Origin: Streptomyces sp. CA-210063
Lineage (GTDB): Bacteria > Actinomycetota > Actinomycetes > Streptomycetales > Streptomycetaceae
Assembly: GCF_024612015.1 (NCBI RefSeq)
Contig: NZ_CP102512.1
Span: 9,548,001-9,612,000, forward strand
Direction of reading: 5' to 3'
Length of the DNA: 64,000 nucleotides
Below are positions 28,051-35,810 of this stretch, piece after piece. Positions within the stretch are counted from its first letter, which is position 1, and the number at the start of each line of letters is the position of its first letter. The position numbers and the translations under genes were made by a program. The notes below the pieces were generated by a model, which saw only the letters and a program-made list of their open reading frames with translations, was not told the origin of the DNA and searched no databases.

Positions 28051-30855
28051 CTACTCGGCGATGTGCCGCTGGATCCAGTCGGCGGCGGCCCGGCGGAAGA
28101 TCCTCCGGCTGTCCGCGCGCAGGAAGTCATGGCCCTCGTCGCGCAGCATCAGCAGTTCGGCCTCGAGACCGCGCTCGCGTGCCGCGCGTACGAACTGCTC
28201 GGATTCGCCGAGCGGCACATTGGTGTCGTGCTCACCGTGGACGGCGAGGAGCGGCACGCGCAGCGCGTCGACACGGGTCATCGGGGACAGCGCGTGCAGC
28301 AGTTCACGGTCGTGCTCCGGGTGGCCGTACTTGTGGGCGGCCGATTCCGCGATCCACGGCTCGGTGCCGGCGTAGAAGGTCGCGAAGTCGGACATGCCGC
28401 AGGCCGCGACGCCGGTGCGGAAGAGCTCCGGGTGCCACACGAGGGAGGCCATCACCAGGTAGCCGCCGTACGAGCGGCCCATGACGGCCAGCCGACGCGG
28501 ATCGGCGAGTCCGGCCACGACGACGTGGGCCGCGCAGTCGGCGACGTCCTCGATCGCGGCGAACCGTCCCGTGCCGAGGTCGGCGTCGACGAACGACCGG
28601 CCGTGCCCCGAGGAGCCGCGCACGTCCGGTGCGAAGACATCCAGGCCACGGCCCAGCAACTCGTGGTAGAGCGGGTTGAACACCGGCCGTTCCTGCTCCT
28701 CCGGCCCGCCGTGCAGATGGATCACGCAGGGCGCCGGCTCCCGGGGGCCACGGCCCGGCGCCCGGTAGTACCAGCCGCTCAGCGGCAGTCCGTCACGTGC
28801 CGTCAACCGCAGCGGTACGGGCCGCACGGGCGGACGGCCCGGCGGGACGGCGTCCTCGTCGCGGGACGACCACTCGGTGCGCAGCGCGGCGCCTTCGGGG
28901 AACCACCACACACCGGGGCGGCGCCGCGACCCGGACAGGGCCAGCACCAGTCCCGACCGGCCGTCGACGTGCGGGATGCGCGTCACCACCTCGTGCGGAA
29001 GCGGGACCCCGCGCGCCGGACCCACCGGACCCACCTGAGTGTCCCCAGCGGATGCCGTCGTGACGGCGGTGATCTCCAGCTCACTGGCTCCGCGCACGTT
29101 CCAGGCCAGGGCCGCGGTGTGCCCGTCGTGGCCGAACGCCAGCAGTTCCAGGCCGCAGTCGTCGCGCTCCGCGGCGACGGTCAGCCTCAGCTGCTCCCCT
29201 CCGGAATCCAGGCGGACGGCGAACAGCGCGGCGAACTCGCGTGCCGCGTCGCTCCGCAGCCACAGCGTCGTGGCGTCCGGGGAGAACCGGCCGATCCAGG
29301 GATCTCCGTCGGCGACGCGTAGGGCGAAGGTGGTCCGCAGGTCGGTGGTGCGCACGACGAGCGCCTCGCGGCGGCCGCGTGGCCCCCGGCGCAGCAGCGC
29401 CAGCCGTCCGTCCCGGCTGATGTCGCACACGCGCAGGGTGGCGGCGCCGCGTTCGACCGCCAGCAGGGCCGGCGCCGCCACGCCCAGGGGGTCGACGAGG
29501 TAGGCGGCCAGCCCTCCACCGGGCGACCCCTCGGGGGCCAGCCCGCCGCCGGGCGACCCCTCGGGGGCCAGCCTTCCGCCGGGCGACCCCTCGGGGGGCA
29601 GCCCGCCTCCAGGCGTACCGACGGCGGCCGGTCCTTCGGTGGCTGTCCCGTCGAGGGTCAGCCCGCCGCCGGGCGACCCCTCGGGGGCCAGCCTTCCGCC
29701 GGGCGACCCCTCGGGGGCCAGCCTTCCGCCGGGCGACCCCTCGGGGGGCAGCCCGCCTCCGGGCGTCCCGACGGCGGCCGGTCCTTCGTCGGGTGTTCCC
29801 TTGGGGGCCCCTTCGGTGGCCGTCCCGTTGAGGGTCAGCCCGCTCCCGGGTGTCGCGTCGGTGGCTGGTCCTCCGGCGGGGGTCGTCCCCTTGGGGGCTC
29901 CTTCGGCGGCCGTCCCGTCGAGGGCCAGCCCACCCCCTGGCGGCCCGTCGGCGCCCGATCCTCCGCCGGGCCTCCCCTCCGGGGCCGGCCCTCTGCCGGG
30001 CCTCCCCTCCGGGGCCGGCCCTCCGCCTTCTCCCTCGGGAGCACCAGGGCCCCCCGCGCTCCGGCTGAACTCGTCGGCGGCGGTGACTGTTTCGGTGGGG
30101 GTGTCCTCCAGGGGGTGGGACGGCCTGCTCTCGGGTGTGTCCGCCGGCAGCGGAGTGTGGATGGTCCCCGGGGCGCGGGTGGCGGGATCGGCGTCGCCGT
30201 GGTGTGGGCCGCCCAGCAGTACGGCCCGGCCGTCCCGGGTGGCCCAGCCCGCTGGGCGGGGGGCGGTGTACGTGTGCGGGTCGGCGAGGCCGGGCTCCGC
30301 ATGGGCGGGCCCTTCCTCGGTGTCGGCACCGCCCGGCGTGAGAACCGGCTCGGCGACGGTGACGGCGACCGCCGAGCCGTCGTGCTGCCAGCAGCCCAGG
30401 TACGCGGAGCTGCCGGGCTCGGCGCCGGCGAGAACGCGTCGCCCGGTCCCGTCAGGGCGTACGCACAGCACCCGGGTGTGTTCGCCGCCTCCCGGGGCCG
30501 TGGTGTAGGCGATCCAGCGGCCGTCCGGCGACCAGGCCACCTCCTTGACCGGGTGCGGGTCGGCGTCGAGGAGATGGACCTCGTGCCCGTCGACGGGGCC
30601 GGTCCACAGCTGCGGCACCCCGCTGCGGTCGCAGATGAACGCGACGTACCTGCCGCTCGGGTCCACCGACGGATACCAGCAGCCATGGGACCTCAGCGGC
30701 TGCGGTGTGTCCAGCGGCCCGCTGGTGTCGGGCAGCGGGACCGGCACCGGAGCCATGGGGGCCGGCATCGGAGTGGTGGCCGTCCCGGCCAGGCCGCCGG
30801 CCGACCCGGCCGTCACCGTGGAGACGGTGCCGTGATTCTCGGGCCGCCACGGCAC
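28051..30855 (-). CDS. S9-family (prolyl-oligopeptidase-type) peptidase with a repeat insert
   Basis: About 934 residues. The N-terminal half is a PD40/WD40-like propeller (HGCWYPSVDPSGRYVAFI, EVAWSPDGRWIAYTT). The C-terminal 250 residues are an alpha/beta-hydrolase with GRSYGGY (Ser795), GEHDTNVP (Asp877) and DEGHDFL (His910). Residues ~275-447 are a Gly/Pro-rich run of PEGSPGGGLA repeats inserted in the propeller, coded by 30-bp DNA repeats. No signal peptide, so cytoplasmic. The start is uncertain; GTG 30855 is chosen because the open frame further up runs into the amidotransferase gene. It probably cleaves small peptides or acyl-amino acids and may turn over the product of the upstream enzymes. 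Confidence 0.85.
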   Translation of the reverse strand: MPWRPENHGTVSTVTAGSAGGLAGTATTPMPAPMAPVPVPLPDTSGPLDTPQPLRSHGCWYPSVDPSGRYVAFICDRSGVPQLWTGPVDGHEVHLLDADPHPVKEVAWSPDGRWIAYTTAPGGGEHTRVLCVRPDGTGRRVLAGAEPGSSAYLGCWQHDGSAVAVTVAEPVLTPGGADTEEGPAHAEPGLADPHTYTAPRPAGWATRDGRAVLLGGPHHGDADPATRAPGTIHTPLPADTPESRPSHPLEDTPTETVTAADEFSRSAGGPGAPEGEGGGPAPEGRPGRGPAPEGRPGGGSGADGPPGGGLALDGTAAEGAPKGTTPAGGPATDATPGSGLTLNGTATEGAPKGTPDEGPAAVGTPGGGLPPEGSPGGRLAPEGSPGGRLAPEGSPGGGLTLDGTATEGPAAVGTPGGGLPPEGSPGGRLAPEGSPGGGLAPEGSPGGGLAAYLVDPLGVAAPALLAVERGAATLRVCDISRDGRLALLRRGPRGRREALVVRTTDLRTTFALRVADGDPWIGRFSPDATTLWLRSDAAREFAALFAVRLDSGGEQLRLTVAAERDDCGLELLAFGHDGHTAALAWNVRGASELEITAVTTASAGDTQVGPVGPARGVPLPHEVVTRIPHVDGRSGLVLALSGSRRRPGVWWFPEGAALRTEWSSRDEDAVPPGRPPVRPVPLRLTARDGLPLSGWYYRAPGRGPREPAPCVIHLHGGPEEQERPVFNPLYHELLGRGLDVFAPDVRGSSGHGRSFVDADLGTGRFAAIEDVADCAAHVVVAGLADPRRLAVMGRSYGGYLVMASLVWHPELFRTGVAACGMSDFATFYAGTEPWIAESAAHKYGHPEHDRELLHALSPMTRVDALRVPLLAVHGEHDTNVPLGESEQFVRAARERGLEAELLMLRDEGHDFLRADSRRIFRRAAADWIQRHIAE
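29515..30030. repeat. 30-bp tandem repeat array (VNTR) inside the S9 peptidase
   Basis: Six near-identical 30-bp units occur at 29521, 29551, 29581, 29671, 29701 and 29731. A 60-bp diverged block (29611-29670) sits between the triplets and its 5' half recurs at 29761. More degenerate copies run to about 30030. All spacings are multiples of 30, so the frame is preserved. Units encode decapeptides of the PEGSPGGGLA type. Confidence 0.93.
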
Positions 30856-30938
30856 CCCGTCGACGACGCCTTCGCCCGTGAGCGGGCGTGGCGAGGCCGC
30901 CGTCGCCGGGCGCGGTGGGTGGGTCCCCTGCGCCCCGG

Positions 30939-32723
30939 TCAGCCGATTCCGTGCGTTTGCAGCCATATCTCCAGCAAAGCTACCTGCCACAGCTCGTTCG
31001 CCCCACGCCTGGTGCGGTGCTCGTCCGGCGCCGACAGCAGCCCGGCCACGTACGCGTCCTGGAAGACGCCCCGTGATCTGGCCTCGGGCGCCGACAGAGC
31101 CTCACGGACCCGCCCCAGGACGGGGCCCGCCATGTGCTTGACGGCCGGGACCGGGAAATAGCCCTTCGGCCGGTCCACGACCTCCCTGGGCAGGATCCGG
31201 CGGCCGGCGGCCTTGAGGACTCCCTTGCCGCCGTCGGCGAGTTTCCACTGCGGTGGGCAGGCGGCGGCCAGTTCCACGAGATCGTGGTCGAGGAACGGGA
31301 CGCGGGCCTCCAGGCCCCAGTCCATGGTCATGTTGTCGAGGCGCTTGACCGGATCGTCGACGAGCATCACCTCGGCGTCGAGCCGCAGCGCCGCGTCGAG
31401 AGCGGTCTCGGCGCCCGGGCGCGCCATGTGCTCCCGCACGAAGCGGCCGGACACGTCGTGATCGGGCAGCAGGTCCGGCTCCAGGATCCTCTTGAGGTCG
31501 GTGTGCGGCCGGTCGAAGTACGTCTCGGCGTACGCCTCCGGTGCCCGCTCCCTCGGGACGGCGGCCATCTCCGGGTACCAGTGGTAGCCGGCGAGGACCT
31601 CGTCGGCGCCCTGGCCGCTCTGGACGACCTTCACCTCCTTCGCCACCTGCTCCGACAGCAGATGGAAGGCGACCACGTCATGGCTGGTCATCGGCTCGCT
31701 CATCGCCTCGATCGCCGCGTCCAGCGCCGTGGACACCCGGTCCGAGGGCACCATCAGCTGGTGGTGGTCCGTGCCGAAGTGCCGGGCGACCAGGTCGGAG
31801 TAGCGGAACTCGTCGCCCTCCTCGCCGCCCTCGGACTCGAATCCCACGCTGAACGTCGCGAGATCGCGCTGCCCCTCGTCGGCCAGCAGCGCCACGATCA
31901 GGCTGGAGTCGAGGCCGCCCGACAGGAGAACGCCGACCGGTACGTCGGCGACCATGCGCCGGCGGACGGCGGTGCGCAGCGCGCCCAGCATCGCGTCCCG
32001 CCAGTCGTCCGCGCCCAGGTCCGCGCAGTCGTCCCGGCGCGTGTACGACGGCTGCCAGTACCGGATGTCGCGGTGGCGGCCGTCCGGCTCCACGACGCGT
32101 ACGGTTGCCGCGGGCAGCTTGCGTACGCCGGTGAGGACGGTGCGCGGGGCGGCCACCGTGGCATGCCAGCTCATGTACTGGTGCAACGCGACCGGGTCGA
32201 GCGAGGTGTCGACGCCGCCGCCCGCCAGGAGGGCCGGCAGCGAGGAGGCGAAACGCAGCCGTCCCGGCGTCCGAGCCAGGTACAGCGGCTTGATGCCCAG
32301 CCGGTCACGGGCCAGGACCAGCCGCCCGGTGTCCTGCTCGACGATGGCGAAGGCGAACATGCCGTAGAAGCGGTCGACACAGGCGGTTCCCCACTGCTGG
32401 TACGCCTTGAGCACCACCTCGGTGTCGGAGCCGGAGAAGAAGCGGTGGCCGAGACCGCTCAGCTCCGCACGCAGCCCCTTGTAGTTGTAGACGCAGCCGT
32501 TGAAGACACCGGCGATCCGCCCCGCGGAGTCGCTCATCGGCTGCGCCCCGCACTCGGACAGATCGATGATCTTCAGTCGGCGGTGCCCCAGCGCCACGGC
32601 GCCCTGCGACCACAGGCCCCTGCCGTCCGGTCCCCGGGCGGCCAGCCGGTCGGTCATGCGCTCGACGGCCGCCAGGTCCGGCCGTCCCCCGTCGAAACAG
32701 ATCTCTCCGCTGAGACCGCACAT
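30939..32723 (-). CDS. asnB: Glutamine-dependent asparagine-synthetase-like amidotransferase (NAGGN AsnO type)
   Basis: 594 residues. MCGLSGE at the start gives the glutaminase nucleophile Cys2 and is followed by RGPDGRG and FNGCVYNYKGL; residues ~215-590 are the ATP-PPase synthetase domain with LLSGGLDSS and SGQGADE. The sequence is much closer in feel to N-acetylglutaminylglutamine amidotransferases, which amidate a dipeptide osmolyte, than to housekeeping AsnB; this is from memory of the family. ATG 32723 overlaps the TGA of a 36-codon ORF by one base. The S9 peptidase follows 84 bp downstream. Likely to amidate a small glutamate-containing compound. Confidence 0.9.
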   Translation of the reverse strand: MCGLSGEICFDGGRPDLAAVERMTDRLAARGPDGRGLWSQGAVALGHRRLKIIDLSECGAQPMSDSAGRIAGVFNGCVYNYKGLRAELSGLGHRFFSGSDTEVVLKAYQQWGTACVDRFYGMFAFAIVEQDTGRLVLARDRLGIKPLYLARTPGRLRFASSLPALLAGGGVDTSLDPVALHQYMSWHATVAAPRTVLTGVRKLPAATVRVVEPDGRHRDIRYWQPSYTRRDDCADLGADDWRDAMLGALRTAVRRRMVADVPVGVLLSGGLDSSLIVALLADEGQRDLATFSVGFESEGGEEGDEFRYSDLVARHFGTDHHQLMVPSDRVSTALDAAIEAMSEPMTSHDVVAFHLLSEQVAKEVKVVQSGQGADEVLAGYHWYPEMAAVPRERAPEAYAETYFDRPHTDLKRILEPDLLPDHDVSGRFVREHMARPGAETALDAALRLDAEVMLVDDPVKRLDNMTMDWGLEARVPFLDHDLVELAAACPPQWKLADGGKGVLKAAGRRILPREVVDRPKGYFPVPAVKHMAGPVLGRVREALSAPEARSRGVFQDAYVAGLLSAPDEHRTRRGANELWQVALLEIWLQTHGIG

Positions 32724-32833
32724 CAGGCGACACCCCCTCGCAGGGGGCCGGGGCCGGCCGTGCTCGGAGGCGGGGCCTTGAGCGAGCACGAGCCGGTCCG
32801 ATCCGCGTGCGTATCGGTATTGCTGCTGGACAT
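32723..32833 (-). CDS. Candidate 36-residue microprotein translationally coupled to the amidotransferase
   Basis: ATG at 32833 is preceded by AAGGAG with about 10-base spacing, the best ribosome site in this stretch. The 36 codons end in TGA, whose last base is the first base of the amidotransferase ATG (TGATG), the geometry of translational coupling. The peptide begins MSSSNTDTHADRTGSC and continues SLKAPPPS...GPGPLRGGV; it has one Cys and one Lys, no signal peptide and no helix. It could be a leader that sets amidotransferase translation, or a substrate/partner of the neighbouring enzymes. No known family recognised. Confidence 0.6.
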   Translation of the reverse strand: MSSSNTDTHADRTGSCSLKAPPPSTAGPGPLRGGVA

Positions 32834-32869
32834 GCGAGCCACTCTCCTTGATCACAGCAGGCCCTGCCC

Positions 32870-32916
32870 CCACGGCGCGGACGGCGGCTTCCCCGTCCGG
32901 GTTCTCCGCGCCGTGG
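32870..32916 (-). promoter_or_regulatory. 12-bp perfect hairpin between the GCS2 ligase and the 36-codon ORF
   Basis: CCACGGCGCGGA (32870-32881) and TCCGCGCCGTGG (32905-32916) are perfect reverse complements around a 23-base loop. The hairpin begins about 50 bp after the GCS2 stop and ends about 37 bp before the small ORF on the transcribed (minus) strand. It could be a partial terminator, an attenuator or an RNA-processing site that sets different levels of ligase and amidotransferase. Confidence 0.65.
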
Positions 32917-32969
32917 CGCCCTGTCGCGGGGCGACGGCCGGCGCCTGCCTTTTCGCACGGCCGCGCGGG

Positions 32970-34139
32970 TCAGCCGCCGACGGTTTCCACCGCGTACGGC
33001 GCCGGGGTCCCCGCAGCGACGGGTCGGCGCACGGCTCCTTGGGCGGGGCTCCGCCCGTGCTCGCCACGGGTCTCGGCGACCATCGTCTCGACGCAGGCGA
33101 GCAGGCCCTGCGACTCGGCGACCCCGCGCAGGCGGTGGGCCGCGCTGCCCCGAGCCAGCGCCTCTTCCATCAGTACGCGTACGGCGTCCCAGTCGCCGAA
33201 GGCTTCCAAGGTCGGGCGCAGCCGCCGGAGCATGGCGCGCAGGACGGTGGGAGCGGGCGCGGCGAGACGGTCGACCGGGTCGACGAGGGTGCCCTCAAGA
33301 CCCGCGCGGGCCGCCCGCCAGACCGCCGCCCGGAACCATTCGTGCCTGCCGTCACAACCCCGCCCCGGCCGCTCCAGCCGGACCCGCGCCTCCTCGACCA
33401 GAGCGCGGAACAGCCCGGCGACGAGCACGACCGTCTCGATGCGCGGGCAGGCGTCGCAGATGCGCAGCTCCAGGGTCTGCTGGTGGTCGGACGGCCGTAC
33501 GTCGTAATAGATCATGCCCCGGTCGCTGATCACGCCGGAGCTGATCAGATCCTCGACCGCGGCGTCGTAGTCGGCGGCTCGGGCGAAGCAGCCGACCGGC
33601 CCCGAGGTGGGCCAGCGCTGCCACAGCATGGTGCGCCAGCTGGCGTATCCGGTGTCCGTGCCGAGCCAGAACGGTGAGCTGGCGGACAGAGCCAGCAGCG
33701 GGGGCAGCCACGGCGAGACGGCGCACATGATCCGGACGGCCGTGTCACGATCGGGAACGTCGACATGGACCTGCGCGCTGCACACGAGATGCTCGTCGGC
33801 GACCTGTCGGTATTCCTCGACCATGTGCCGGTAGCGGGAACCGGCGGTGGCGTCACCGGGCGTGAGCCGCGCGAACGGCACGGTCCCGGCCGCGACGACG
33901 GCCAGCCCGAGCGGGGAGGCCGCCGCGTCCAGCCGCCGCCGTGCCCCGGCCAGATCGGCGTGCAGGGAGTCCAGCGAGGCGTGCACCCGGCTGTTCCACT
34001 CCACGGCCGACCGCTGCAGCTCGGGCTTGAACTCGCAGCCGCGCAGCCGACCGAGAACCGCACCGGCGCTCGGGACGAGCCGCCCGCTCTCCGCGTCCAG
34101 AACATGGAATTCTTCCTCTACGCCTACACGAACGGTCAC
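32970..34139 (-). CDS. GCS2-type carboxylate-amine ligase (YbdK family)
   Basis: 389 residues. The start MTVRVGVEEEFHVLD is the GCS2 ATP/Mg site signature; EFKPELQRSAVEWNS, AAGTVPFARL, SAQVHVDVPD, YYDVRPSDHQQTLELRICD follow in the usual order. The family forms ATP-dependent amide bonds to the gamma-carboxylate of glutamate or similar acids; many members have unknown substrates. GTG 34139 follows GGGAGAGG. About 45 Arg/Ala/Pro-rich residues trail the conserved domain. First gene of the minus-strand locus with the small ORF, amidotransferase and S9 peptidase, which suggests synthesis and turnover of a small glutamate-based peptide. Confidence 0.9.
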   Translation of the reverse strand: MTVRVGVEEEFHVLDAESGRLVPSAGAVLGRLRGCEFKPELQRSAVEWNSRVHASLDSLHADLAGARRRLDAAASPLGLAVVAAGTVPFARLTPGDATAGSRYRHMVEEYRQVADEHLVCSAQVHVDVPDRDTAVRIMCAVSPWLPPLLALSASSPFWLGTDTGYASWRTMLWQRWPTSGPVGCFARAADYDAAVEDLISSGVISDRGMIYYDVRPSDHQQTLELRICDACPRIETVVLVAGLFRALVEEARVRLERPGRGCDGRHEWFRAAVWRAARAGLEGTLVDPVDRLAAPAPTVLRAMLRRLRPTLEAFGDWDAVRVLMEEALARGSAAHRLRGVAESQGLLACVETMVAETRGEHGRSPAQGAVRRPVAAGTPAPYAVETVGG

Positions 34140-34280
34140 GGCCTCTCCCTCATCCGTACCCGAGATCGCCCGCCGGGCCGAAGACCTGCGACGACCGCTG
34201 CGCAGTGCGAGTTCCCGGCAAACACATAAATAAGCCGCATTTGTTACATCCACTGCCGAGGAATCGCACAAACGTGCCAG

Positions 34281-34304
34281 GCTTTGAGTGCCGGGCGGGG
34301 GTAC
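34281..34304 (+). promoter_or_regulatory. SigB-type stress promoter for the decarboxylase-family gene
   Basis: GCTT (34281-34284), a 14-base spacer and GGGTAC (34299-34304) match the SigB consensus GNNT-N14-16-GGGTAC. It ends 42 bp before the ATG at 34347. An AT-rich patch (34222-34250) in the divergent region may hold the opposite promoter. Confidence 0.75.
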
Positions 34305-34346
34305 TCGTAGGTACCCGTACGAGCGGGAGATTCCCGGGAGGTGGGC

Positions 34347-35810
34347 ATGGACCACTCACGTGTGCCCGTGCTGGAGGCATTGCAGGAGTTCCGGCGGCGC
34401 GGAGACGTGGCGTACGGCCCGCCGGGCCACAAACAGGGCCGTGGCGTGGACCCACGGGTGGCGGAGATCCTCGGGGCTGATGTGTTCCGCTCGGACGTCC
34501 TCTCGCTCAACGGCCTCGACGACCGCCGGCAGTCCCGGGGCGTCCTGAACGAGGCCCAGGAGCTGATGGCCGACGCGGTCGGCGCCGAGCAGGCGTTCTT
34601 CTCCACGTGCGGGAGTTCCCTGTCGGTGAAGACCGCGATGCTGGCCGTGGCGGGCCCCGGCGAGAAGCTGCTGCTGTCGCGCAACGCGCACAAGTCGGTG
34701 ATCGCGGCCGTGGTCGTCAACGGCGTCGAACCGATCTGGGTGCACCCCGAGTTCGACACCGAGCGGCACCTCGCCCACCCGCCGGAACCCGACGACGTAC
34801 GCCGCCGGTTGCGGGAACACCCGGACGCCAAGGGCATGTTGCTGATCACGCCCGTCGACTGGGGCACCTGCGCCGACGTCCGGGGCGTGGCCCGGGTGTG
34901 CCACGAGTTCGGCGTCCCCCTCCTCGTGGACGAGGCATGGGGCGCCCACCTTCCCTTCCACCCCGGGCTGCCCGCCTGGGGCATGGACGCCGAGGCCGAC
35001 CTGGTGGTCACCAGCGTCCACAAGATGGGCGGCGCCATCGAACAGAGTTCCGTCTTCCACCTCCAGTACGACCGAGTGTCGCCGGAGGTCCTCAAACAGC
35101 GGGAGGACCTGCTCGGTACCACCAGCGCCTCCACCCTGGTGTACGCCTCCCTCGACGGCTGGCGCCGCCAGATGGTCGAGCAGGGGCACGAGCTGCTGGA
35201 CGCCGCGCTGCACCGCGCCGAACGGATCCGTACCGCGGCCGGCGATCTGCCGGGCCTGCGGCCCATGGGCCGGGAGGTCGTCGAGGAGGGACTCGCCGCC
35301 GACTTCGACCCCTTGAAGATCGTGATCGACGTACGGGAGCTGGGCATCAGCGGTATGCAGGCGGCCGAATGGCTGCGGGTCGAGCGCCACGTGGACGTCG
35401 GCGGCTCCGACACCTGCCGTATCAGCGCCTCGATCACCCACGCCGACGACGACGAGACCGAGAAGATCCTGCTGGACGCGCTGAACGCGCTCGTCGACGG
35501 CGCCGACTCCATCGAACGGCAGTCGGCGGTCCACCTGCCCGAGCCCTCGGACCTGGAGCTGGAACAGGCCATGGTGCCGCGCGAGGCGTTCTTCGCGGAG
35601 GTGGAGCATGTGCCCGCCGAGCGGGCGGCGGGCCGTATCGCGGCGGAGATGATCAGTCCCTACCCGCCGGGTGTCCCCGCGATCGCCCCCGGAGAAGTGA
35701 TCACCGACGCCGTCCTCGACCACCTCCGCAGCGGTGCCGAGCACGGCGTCCTCATCCCGGACGCGGCGGACTCCTCGATCCGGACCCTGCGGGTGGTGGC
35801 GCGCCACTGA
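34347..35810 (+). CDS. Orn/Lys/Arg decarboxylase-family PLP enzyme
   Basis: 487 residues of the fold-type I PLP family. YGPPGHKQG (residues ~20-28) is the substrate-loop signature, ADVFRSDVL and STCGSSLSVKTAML form the cofactor site, VDEAWGAHLPFH carries the PLP-binding Asp, and TSVHKMGGAIEQSS the Schiff-base Lys. A C-terminal domain (residues ~395-487) has PYPPGVPAIAPGE. It probably decarboxylates ornithine, lysine or arginine to a polyamine precursor. GGGAGGTG precedes the ATG. Divergent from the GCS2 ligase and preceded by a SigB-type promoter, so polyamine formation under stress is plausible. Confidence 0.9.
   Translation: MDHSRVPVLEALQEFRRRGDVAYGPPGHKQGRGVDPRVAEILGADVFRSDVLSLNGLDDRRQSRGVLNEAQELMADAVGAEQAFFSTCGSSLSVKTAMLAVAGPGEKLLLSRNAHKSVIAAVVVNGVEPIWVHPEFDTERHLAHPPEPDDVRRRLREHPDAKGMLLITPVDWGTCADVRGVARVCHEFGVPLLVDEAWGAHLPFHPGLPAWGMDAEADLVVTSVHKMGGAIEQSSVFHLQYDRVSPEVLKQREDLLGTTSASTLVYASLDGWRRQMVEQGHELLDAALHRAERIRTAAGDLPGLRPMGREVVEEGLAADFDPLKIVIDVRELGISGMQAAEWLRVERHVDVGGSDTCRISASITHADDDETEKILLDALNALVDGADSIERQSAVHLPEPSDLELEQAMVPREAFFAEVEHVPAERAAGRIAAEMISPYPPGVPAIAPGEVITDAVLDHLRSGAEHGVLIPDAADSSIRTLRVVARH

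Follow-up and report, generated by a model that had tools for sequence, protein, structure and literature searches.

A 64,000-nucleotide stretch of Streptomyces sp. CA-210063 (assembly GCF_024612015.1, contig NZ_CP102512.1, positions 9,548,001 to 9,612,000; hereafter the window) carries three minus-strand genes, transcribed in the order GCS2, AsnO, S9, that we have compared across actinobacterial genomes. GCS2 (32970..34139, minus strand; PF04107, 177 bits) is a YbdK-type carboxylate-amine ligase of 389 amino acids; it scores 270.7 bits against the YbdK family model TIGR02050, above the curated cut-off of 176.4, and with 330.6 bits falls 1.4 bits short of the cut-off of 332 set for the narrower model NF010041. 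AsnO (30939..32723, minus strand), of 594 amino acids, is a glutamine-dependent amidotransferase of the type that makes the salt-protecting dipeptide N-acetylglutaminylglutamine amide (NAGGN), scoring 942.6 bits against TIGR03104, the model for the amidotransferase of the NAGGN trio (cut-off 570). S9 (28051..~30990, minus strand, start codon uncertain; PF00326 Peptidase_S9, 140 bits) is a peptidase of the prolyl-oligopeptidase family. These profile scores confirm the three genes as named in an original prediction made from the DNA letters. In Streptomyces and in several related actinobacterial families AsnO is accompanied by another ligase and another peptidase than in the NAGGN trio, which points to a possible alternative route to an amidated dipeptide that would serve as a stress compound.

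The closest solved structure to GCS2 by sequence is YbdK (1r8g), and the residues E8, E9, E10, H125, R169, D213, R215, E224 and R226 are invariant among seven aligned sequences. We discarded a structure prediction made from the GCS2 sequence alone, as its quality was too low (predicted local distance difference test score, pLDDT, 45). AsnO has the Cys2, SGGLDSS and GQGADE motifs, and its closest solved structures by sequence are the hydroxyamidotransferase 7ylz and asparagine synthetase B (1ct9). For S9 the closest structures are S9 family peptidases, including chains named acylaminoacyl-peptidase (5l8s, 1ve6), and the catalytic Ser, Asp and His motifs are present alongside the PF00326 match. 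Across 46 AsnO-linked S9 proteins, a set chosen by the Ser motif, the Asp and His motifs were found in all 46 and a stricter His pattern in 34. A repeat-rich stretch precedes the catalytic domain of the S9 protein: at 29506-30027 (minus strand) a 30-base tandem repeat (17.5 copies, 69% matches), with a higher-order unit of 150 bases (1.9 copies, 95%), encodes a Gly/Pro-rich part of the protein.

In the known NAGGN trio, as described in two papers, the dipeptide is made by Ngg, an acetyltransferase/ATP-grasp protein, then amidated by AsnO, and a peptidase gene follows (PMC8070244, PMC5563000). The best match to Ngg (TIGR03103) in the window genome reached 30.5 bits against a cut-off of 569. Profile searches placed AsnO over its cut-off in 33 of 150 same-genus genomes, and at an expectation value (E) of 1e-30 Ngg was found in none of these 33; a separate ngg gene co-occurring elsewhere, which the original prediction had named as evidence that would count against it, is thus absent from these genomes at this threshold. 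A search of 14 genomes from the GCS2/S9 clade, the window's included, likewise found none with the M42 peptidase of the trio (TIGR03106, E 1e-40), against five of six Ngg-type genomes that have it; two of the 14, G006 and G117, are without GCS2, and one, G619, is without S9 at the locus. The phylum sample holds AsnO in 46 of 396 genomes, 41 of them outside the genus. Ngg is present in 32 of these 41 at E 1e-30 (30 over the cut-off), and for 31 of them the coordinates place it beside asnO on one contig. The 14 Ngg-type loci examined in this sample gave no GCS2 match and, for S9, at most one match of 39 bits. The proposal that ligase and peptidase have both been replaced at this AsnO locus is borne out by these counts.

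We then compared the surroundings of AsnO within the genus, fetching them for all 32 other AsnO-positive genomes, with the window as the 33rd locus. In 20 of the 33 loci the gene immediately upstream of AsnO is GCS2. An S9 match lies downstream in 32; it is partial in L042, L045, L052 and L054, and the one in L045 (G061) is complete in a longer fetch (L137). In the remaining genome, G046, S9 is on another contig. An apparent GCS2-AsnO fusion in L042 was rejected as an artefact, the open frame crossing a run of N. Searched genome-wide at E 1e-80, S9 was found in 32 of the 33 AsnO genomes against 1 of 117 others (Fisher p 2e-30, uncorrected for relatedness), the exceptions being G099, in which AsnO is near a contig end and there is no full S9, and G102, in which S9 is at a contig start. 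At the same threshold a GCS2 ortholog was found in 25 genomes, comprising 21 of the 33 with AsnO and 4 of the 117 without (Fisher p 1e-13, again uncorrected for relatedness). In the named sample, the best 80 of 371 GCS2 loci, AsnO is beside GCS2 in 61 and absent in 15, with contig ends hiding the answer in 4. One of the named strains, S. violaceoruber NRRL S-981 (L194), has all three genes. A second GCS2 paralogue (36-40% identical) was observed within 10 kb of AsnO in L046, L063, L071 and L137, three of which are genomes without an adjacent GCS2. One draft genome, G142 (L131, L134-L136), gave six GCS2 matches on separate contigs, two of them partial and some, by eye, beside transposase-like genes; this could reflect a mixed assembly or multiplication of the gene.

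The class sample extended the comparison to other families. AsnO was present in 106 of 394 genomes, of which 80 were tested for Ngg here, 15 had been tested before and the other 11 were not covered. Ngg was over the cut-off in 31 of the 80, and G710, G772 and G798 gave only a weaker match, to the ATP-grasp part of Ngg. Family f90 had no Ngg match in any of 31 genomes, and family f89 none over the cut-off in seven. In 43 genomes of other genera Ngg did not pass the cut-off; loci were fetched for 20 of them, and in 17 of these 20 GCS2, alone or fused, is directly upstream of AsnO. In 12 of the 17 it forms the first half of a fusion of 845-935 amino acids with a circularly permuted (CP) ATP-grasp domain (families f90, f82, f3, f109 and f5); in the other five, from f89, it stands alone. 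S9 is downstream of AsnO in 16 of the 20. The three loci without GCS2 comprise one with a 71-amino-acid ATP-grasp end and S9 (L236), one with S9 only (L237) and one with neither (L231), and L221-L223 retain ligase and AsnO, S9 being absent. The order fusion, AsnO, S9 also occurs in the phylum sample (L107, by Pfam domains, and L117). Gene order is therefore kept in several actinobacterial families, the comparison that the original prediction had proposed and on which a lack of conservation would have counted against it, and the AsnO locus with replaced ligase and peptidase occurs more widely than could have been known from a single sequence.

Two further arrangements were seen in these families. 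In six of nine f90 loci (L218-L223) a separate gene for a GNAT acetyltransferase of 141 amino acids is beside the set, on the opposite strand in L219; it resembles the acetyltransferase half of Ngg, here encoded separately. In the Ngg-less group of f18 the order is GCS2-like gene, CP-ATP-grasp, AsnO (L121 and L125; in the latter the gene calls are fragmented and the names were assigned by eye). In L127 a GCS2-like gene likewise precedes CP-ATP-grasp, with AsnO cut by the contig end, and in L111 CP-ATP-grasp is upstream of AsnO and a DUF1028 protein downstream.

The AsnO tree of 77 rows, in which 16 of the 32 usable Streptomyces rows (of 33) were kept, contains a clade of 39 rows (support 99/98) with no Ngg row, made up of 16 fusion, 15 stand-alone GCS2 and 8 S9-only rows. 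In these labels L236 counts as a fusion though it has only the 71-amino-acid ATP-grasp end, and G046 counts as S9 only, its S9 being on another contig. Next to the clade stand two Ngg rows together with G796, a row of neither type (98/95). Within the clade, the f89 and Streptomyces rows with stand-alone GCS2 or S9 only form one group (84/87). The f18 group is outside the clade and groups with Ngg rows at 82/87. G268, whose upstream GCS2 is 32% identical, sits on a long branch and was not placed. At least four changes between Ngg and the other states are required. To judge by this tree, whose root is far away, GCS2 and CP-ATP-grasp appear to have come together with AsnO on at least two occasions, which would argue for a function matching that of Ngg. 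The trees and the position comparison leave out L100/G275, because of an internal stop, and G027, presumably lost at the length filter, and the partial AsnO genes of G485 and G520 were left out of the trees throughout.

When AsnO was compared between 32 Streptomyces rows and 30 Ngg-linked ones, 197 of its 594 positions proved common to both sets and near-invariant, with just 12 fixed to different residues in the two. All 74 AsnO rows examined carry the motif GQGADE (74 of 74); the two outgroup rows inspected have GDGSDE. From this conservation, the end of the substrate that is amidated is probably similar to that handled by Ngg-linked AsnO.

The region in front of GCS2 contains a promoter-like element of the SigB-family type, GCTTAT-N13-GGGAAC (34211..34235, minus strand), 72-96 nucleotides upstream of the GCS2 start. 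We searched up to 250 bases upstream of GCS2 with the pattern G-N-TT-N13-17-GG[GA][TA]A[CT] and found it in 14 of 26 loci, in the GCTTAT form in 8 of the 14. Control regions in front of other genes of the same-genus loci had it in 4 of 284 cases (Fisher p 4e-14, the loci being related), and shuffled GCS2 upstream sequences in 0.3 of 26 on average. The named sample (best 80 of 371), which overlaps the 26 loci, had it in 31 of 79. PMC8346170 gives a consensus for the SigB homologues of S. coelicolor, and among its promoters is a SigB/SigF-dependent one whose -10 sequence is GGGAAC; by its letters the window element fits the SigB-homologue form, with -35 GTTT or GNNT, -10 GGG[AT]A and a spacing of 12-14 (PMC8346170). 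Genes resembling an RsbQ hydrolase, a PAS-PP2C phosphatase and a STAS anti-anti-sigma factor were recognised by eye in the neighbourhood of the operon or of a lone GCS2 in L043, L044, L057, L060, L070 and L130, which fits SigB-type stress control. RsbQ-, PP2C- and STAS-type genes are common in Streptomyces.

We favour, with slightly better than even confidence, the reading that the GCS2-AsnO-S9 set is a variant of the NAGGN trio, in which GCS2, in places with its ATP-grasp partner, substitutes for Ngg and S9 for M42 in the making of a stress-induced dipeptide amide. GCS2, the proposed dipeptide-forming ligase in place of Ngg, would be an ATP-dependent carboxylate-amine ligase, elsewhere fused to CP-ATP-grasp, that joins two amino acids of the Glu/Gln type. 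AsnO would amidate the C-terminal carboxylate of the dipeptide with glutamine as its source of ammonia, giving a dipeptide amide that is NAGGN or a close relative. Transcription of the set would start from the SigB-family promoter, and S9, of the acylaminoacyl-peptidase type, is the proposed turnover hydrolase: it would degrade the compound once stress, presumably osmotic, ends, which is the role proposed for the peptidase of the known trio. The N-acetyl group of such a product is unexplained in Streptomyces, whose loci yielded no homologue of the f90 GNAT, other GNAT types not having been searched for.

Several observations besides this missing acetyltransferase weigh against the reading. No GCS2 ortholog was found in 12 of the 33 same-genus AsnO genomes, in G017 the ortholog is unlinked to AsnO, and 4 of the 117 same-genus genomes without AsnO carry one. 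Beyond the genus, S9 is absent in 4 and GCS2 not upstream in 3 of the 20 loci without Ngg over the cut-off. The promoter pattern is absent from 12 of the 26 GCS2 loci, and in front of AsnO genes without an adjacent GCS2 it was found in none of 13 loci (12 with 450 bases to scan, one with only 52). We also know of no settled physiological substrate for YbdK-type ligases. Some of these counts would suit a different arrangement, in which the work is done by AsnO and S9, GCS2 being an optional stress gene that lies next to them by chance, and the substrate of AsnO comes from an unlinked ligase: S9 accompanies AsnO in 32 of 33 same-genus genomes where GCS2 is missing from 12, and four genomes have GCS2 without AsnO. 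Speaking against such a division are the position of GCS2 directly upstream of AsnO in 20 of 33 loci in the genus and 17 of 20 in other genera, 12 of the latter fused to a second ligase domain, and the loci L221-L223, which dispense with S9 rather than the ligase. We consider it unlikely.

The variant-trio reading can also be taken further, to a second actinobacterial route, by GCS2/CP-ATP-grasp, to compatible solutes of the amidated-dipeptide kind, assembled around AsnO at least twice, whose product in Streptomyces would be new and distinct from NAGGN, either non-acetylated or differently linked (for instance gamma-linked). This more specific version is possible, though we hold it doubtful.

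Two other features were named in the original prediction. One is a 36-codon open reading frame (ORF) between GCS2 and AsnO (32723..32833, minus strand), which overlaps the AsnO start through TGATG. The ORF does exist, but its overlap is seen in only 8 of 33 loci, and neither its length nor its sequence is conserved. Four pairs only were comparable by codon position. Among the window and its two nearest relatives the differences at the three positions are 5/5/7, 5/7/8 and 5/6/6, and only the pair L041/L042, with 8/8/14, leans to the third position. The seemingly conserved C-terminus in L043, L054, L057 and L058, among others, is the start of AsnO read in another frame. The ORF is not supported as a working part of the set and was rejected as a microprotein or peptide gene; it is at most a non-conserved leader and probably encodes no peptide.

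These data also bear on the idea that the ORF encodes the precursor of a ribosomal peptide, modified by AsnO and GCS2 and cleaved by S9. In its favour, AsnB-like enzymes act in lasso peptides (AsnO and S9 have NCBIfam matches of this sort below cut-off), and a paper on C-terminal-nitrile peptides mentions asnO and N-acetylglutaminylglutamine (PMC13060819); the third-position lean of L041/L042 would agree as well. A conserved precursor peptide, the mark of a cluster for ribosomally synthesised and post-translationally modified peptides, was not found among the 33 loci. With three of four pairs free of codon-position bias and several ORF ends explained by AsnO out of frame, a ribosomal product is highly improbable.

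The second feature is a divergent gene of the Orn/Lys/Arg decarboxylase family (34341..35810, plus strand; PF01276, 192 bits). Its identity is as predicted; as a regular member it is not supported, since just 6 of the 33 loci in the genus, counting the window, have it close by. In the five others (L058, L059, L065, L066 and L067) it is downstream of S9, copies 86-89% identical are also downstream in 3 of the 80 named loci (L182, L183 and L198), and we regard it as an optional neighbour. The SigB-type promoter assigned to it corresponds to a SigB-like sequence upstream of the gene (34281..34304, plus strand), and the pattern was not found upstream of the decarboxylase in five other loci. The better-conserved SigB-like element, that in front of GCS2, had escaped the original prediction. 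A decarboxylase could supply a polyamine, for example, for GCS2 to join to glutamate, with AsnO amidating the remaining carboxylate to give a new glutamyl-amine. GCS2-type ligases are known as a family to couple carboxylates to amines, and the neighbouring decarboxylases are in keeping with this scheme; it is quite unlikely, as no decarboxylase was found nearby in 27 of 33 same-genus loci, two of the six loci that have one (L066 and L067) are without GCS2, and the conservation of AsnO suggests a dipeptide-like substrate.

Should the variant-trio reading be correct, the AsnO proteins of Streptomyces (33 of 150 genomes) and of several other actinomycete families fall under TIGR03104, a model named 'N-acetylglutaminylglutamine amidotransferase', in genomes without the partner enzyme that the name implies. 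It would mean that a stress metabolite has been overlooked in well-studied antibiotic producers, and that an osmolyte operon can swap its ligase and peptidase while retaining the amidating enzyme. YbdK-type ligases, which to our knowledge have long been without a clear role, would gain a pathway that can be tested.

Our literature search, which excluded subscription papers, returned no description of the GCS2-AsnO pairing. The amidoligase survey of Iyer and co-workers (2009) is said to treat the GCS2 and CP-ATP-grasp families and may list such neighbourhoods, and asnO-ngg was reportedly described in S. meliloti in 2010. Compared with the NAGGN trio asnO-ngg-M42 (S. meliloti asnO-ngg, P. aeruginosa PA3459-PA3461), the window set has an orthologous AsnO adjoined by an amide-forming ligase and a peptidase, and regulation that looks stress-related, here from its sequence. 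In contrast to the trio, no Ngg and no M42 partner was found for it, with GCS2 (often a CP-ATP-grasp fusion) and S9 in their stead, a different gene order and an AsnO from a separate clade. The window GCS2 belongs by sequence to the same family as other YbdK-family ligases (TIGR02050; 1r8g) and, unlike them, is of a type that frequently partners AsnO and S9. A Streptomyces ligase that joins glutamine to an amine is PumK, which we take to be a GCS2 family member. PumK is described as the Gln-APU carboxylate-amine ligase of pseudouridimycin synthesis, and by that description it shares with the GCS2 ligases the kind of product name (PMC7955054). A possible published parallel is an 'asnO-ngg' locus of Frankia isolates from Casuarina, compared here through its published description: its AsnO is more than 60% identical to known ones, a peptidase gene lies between asnO and the ligase gene, and the ligase is called Ngg despite less than 15% identity to known Ngg proteins (PMC5563000). 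This Frankia locus may represent the same situation as GCS2-AsnO-S9.

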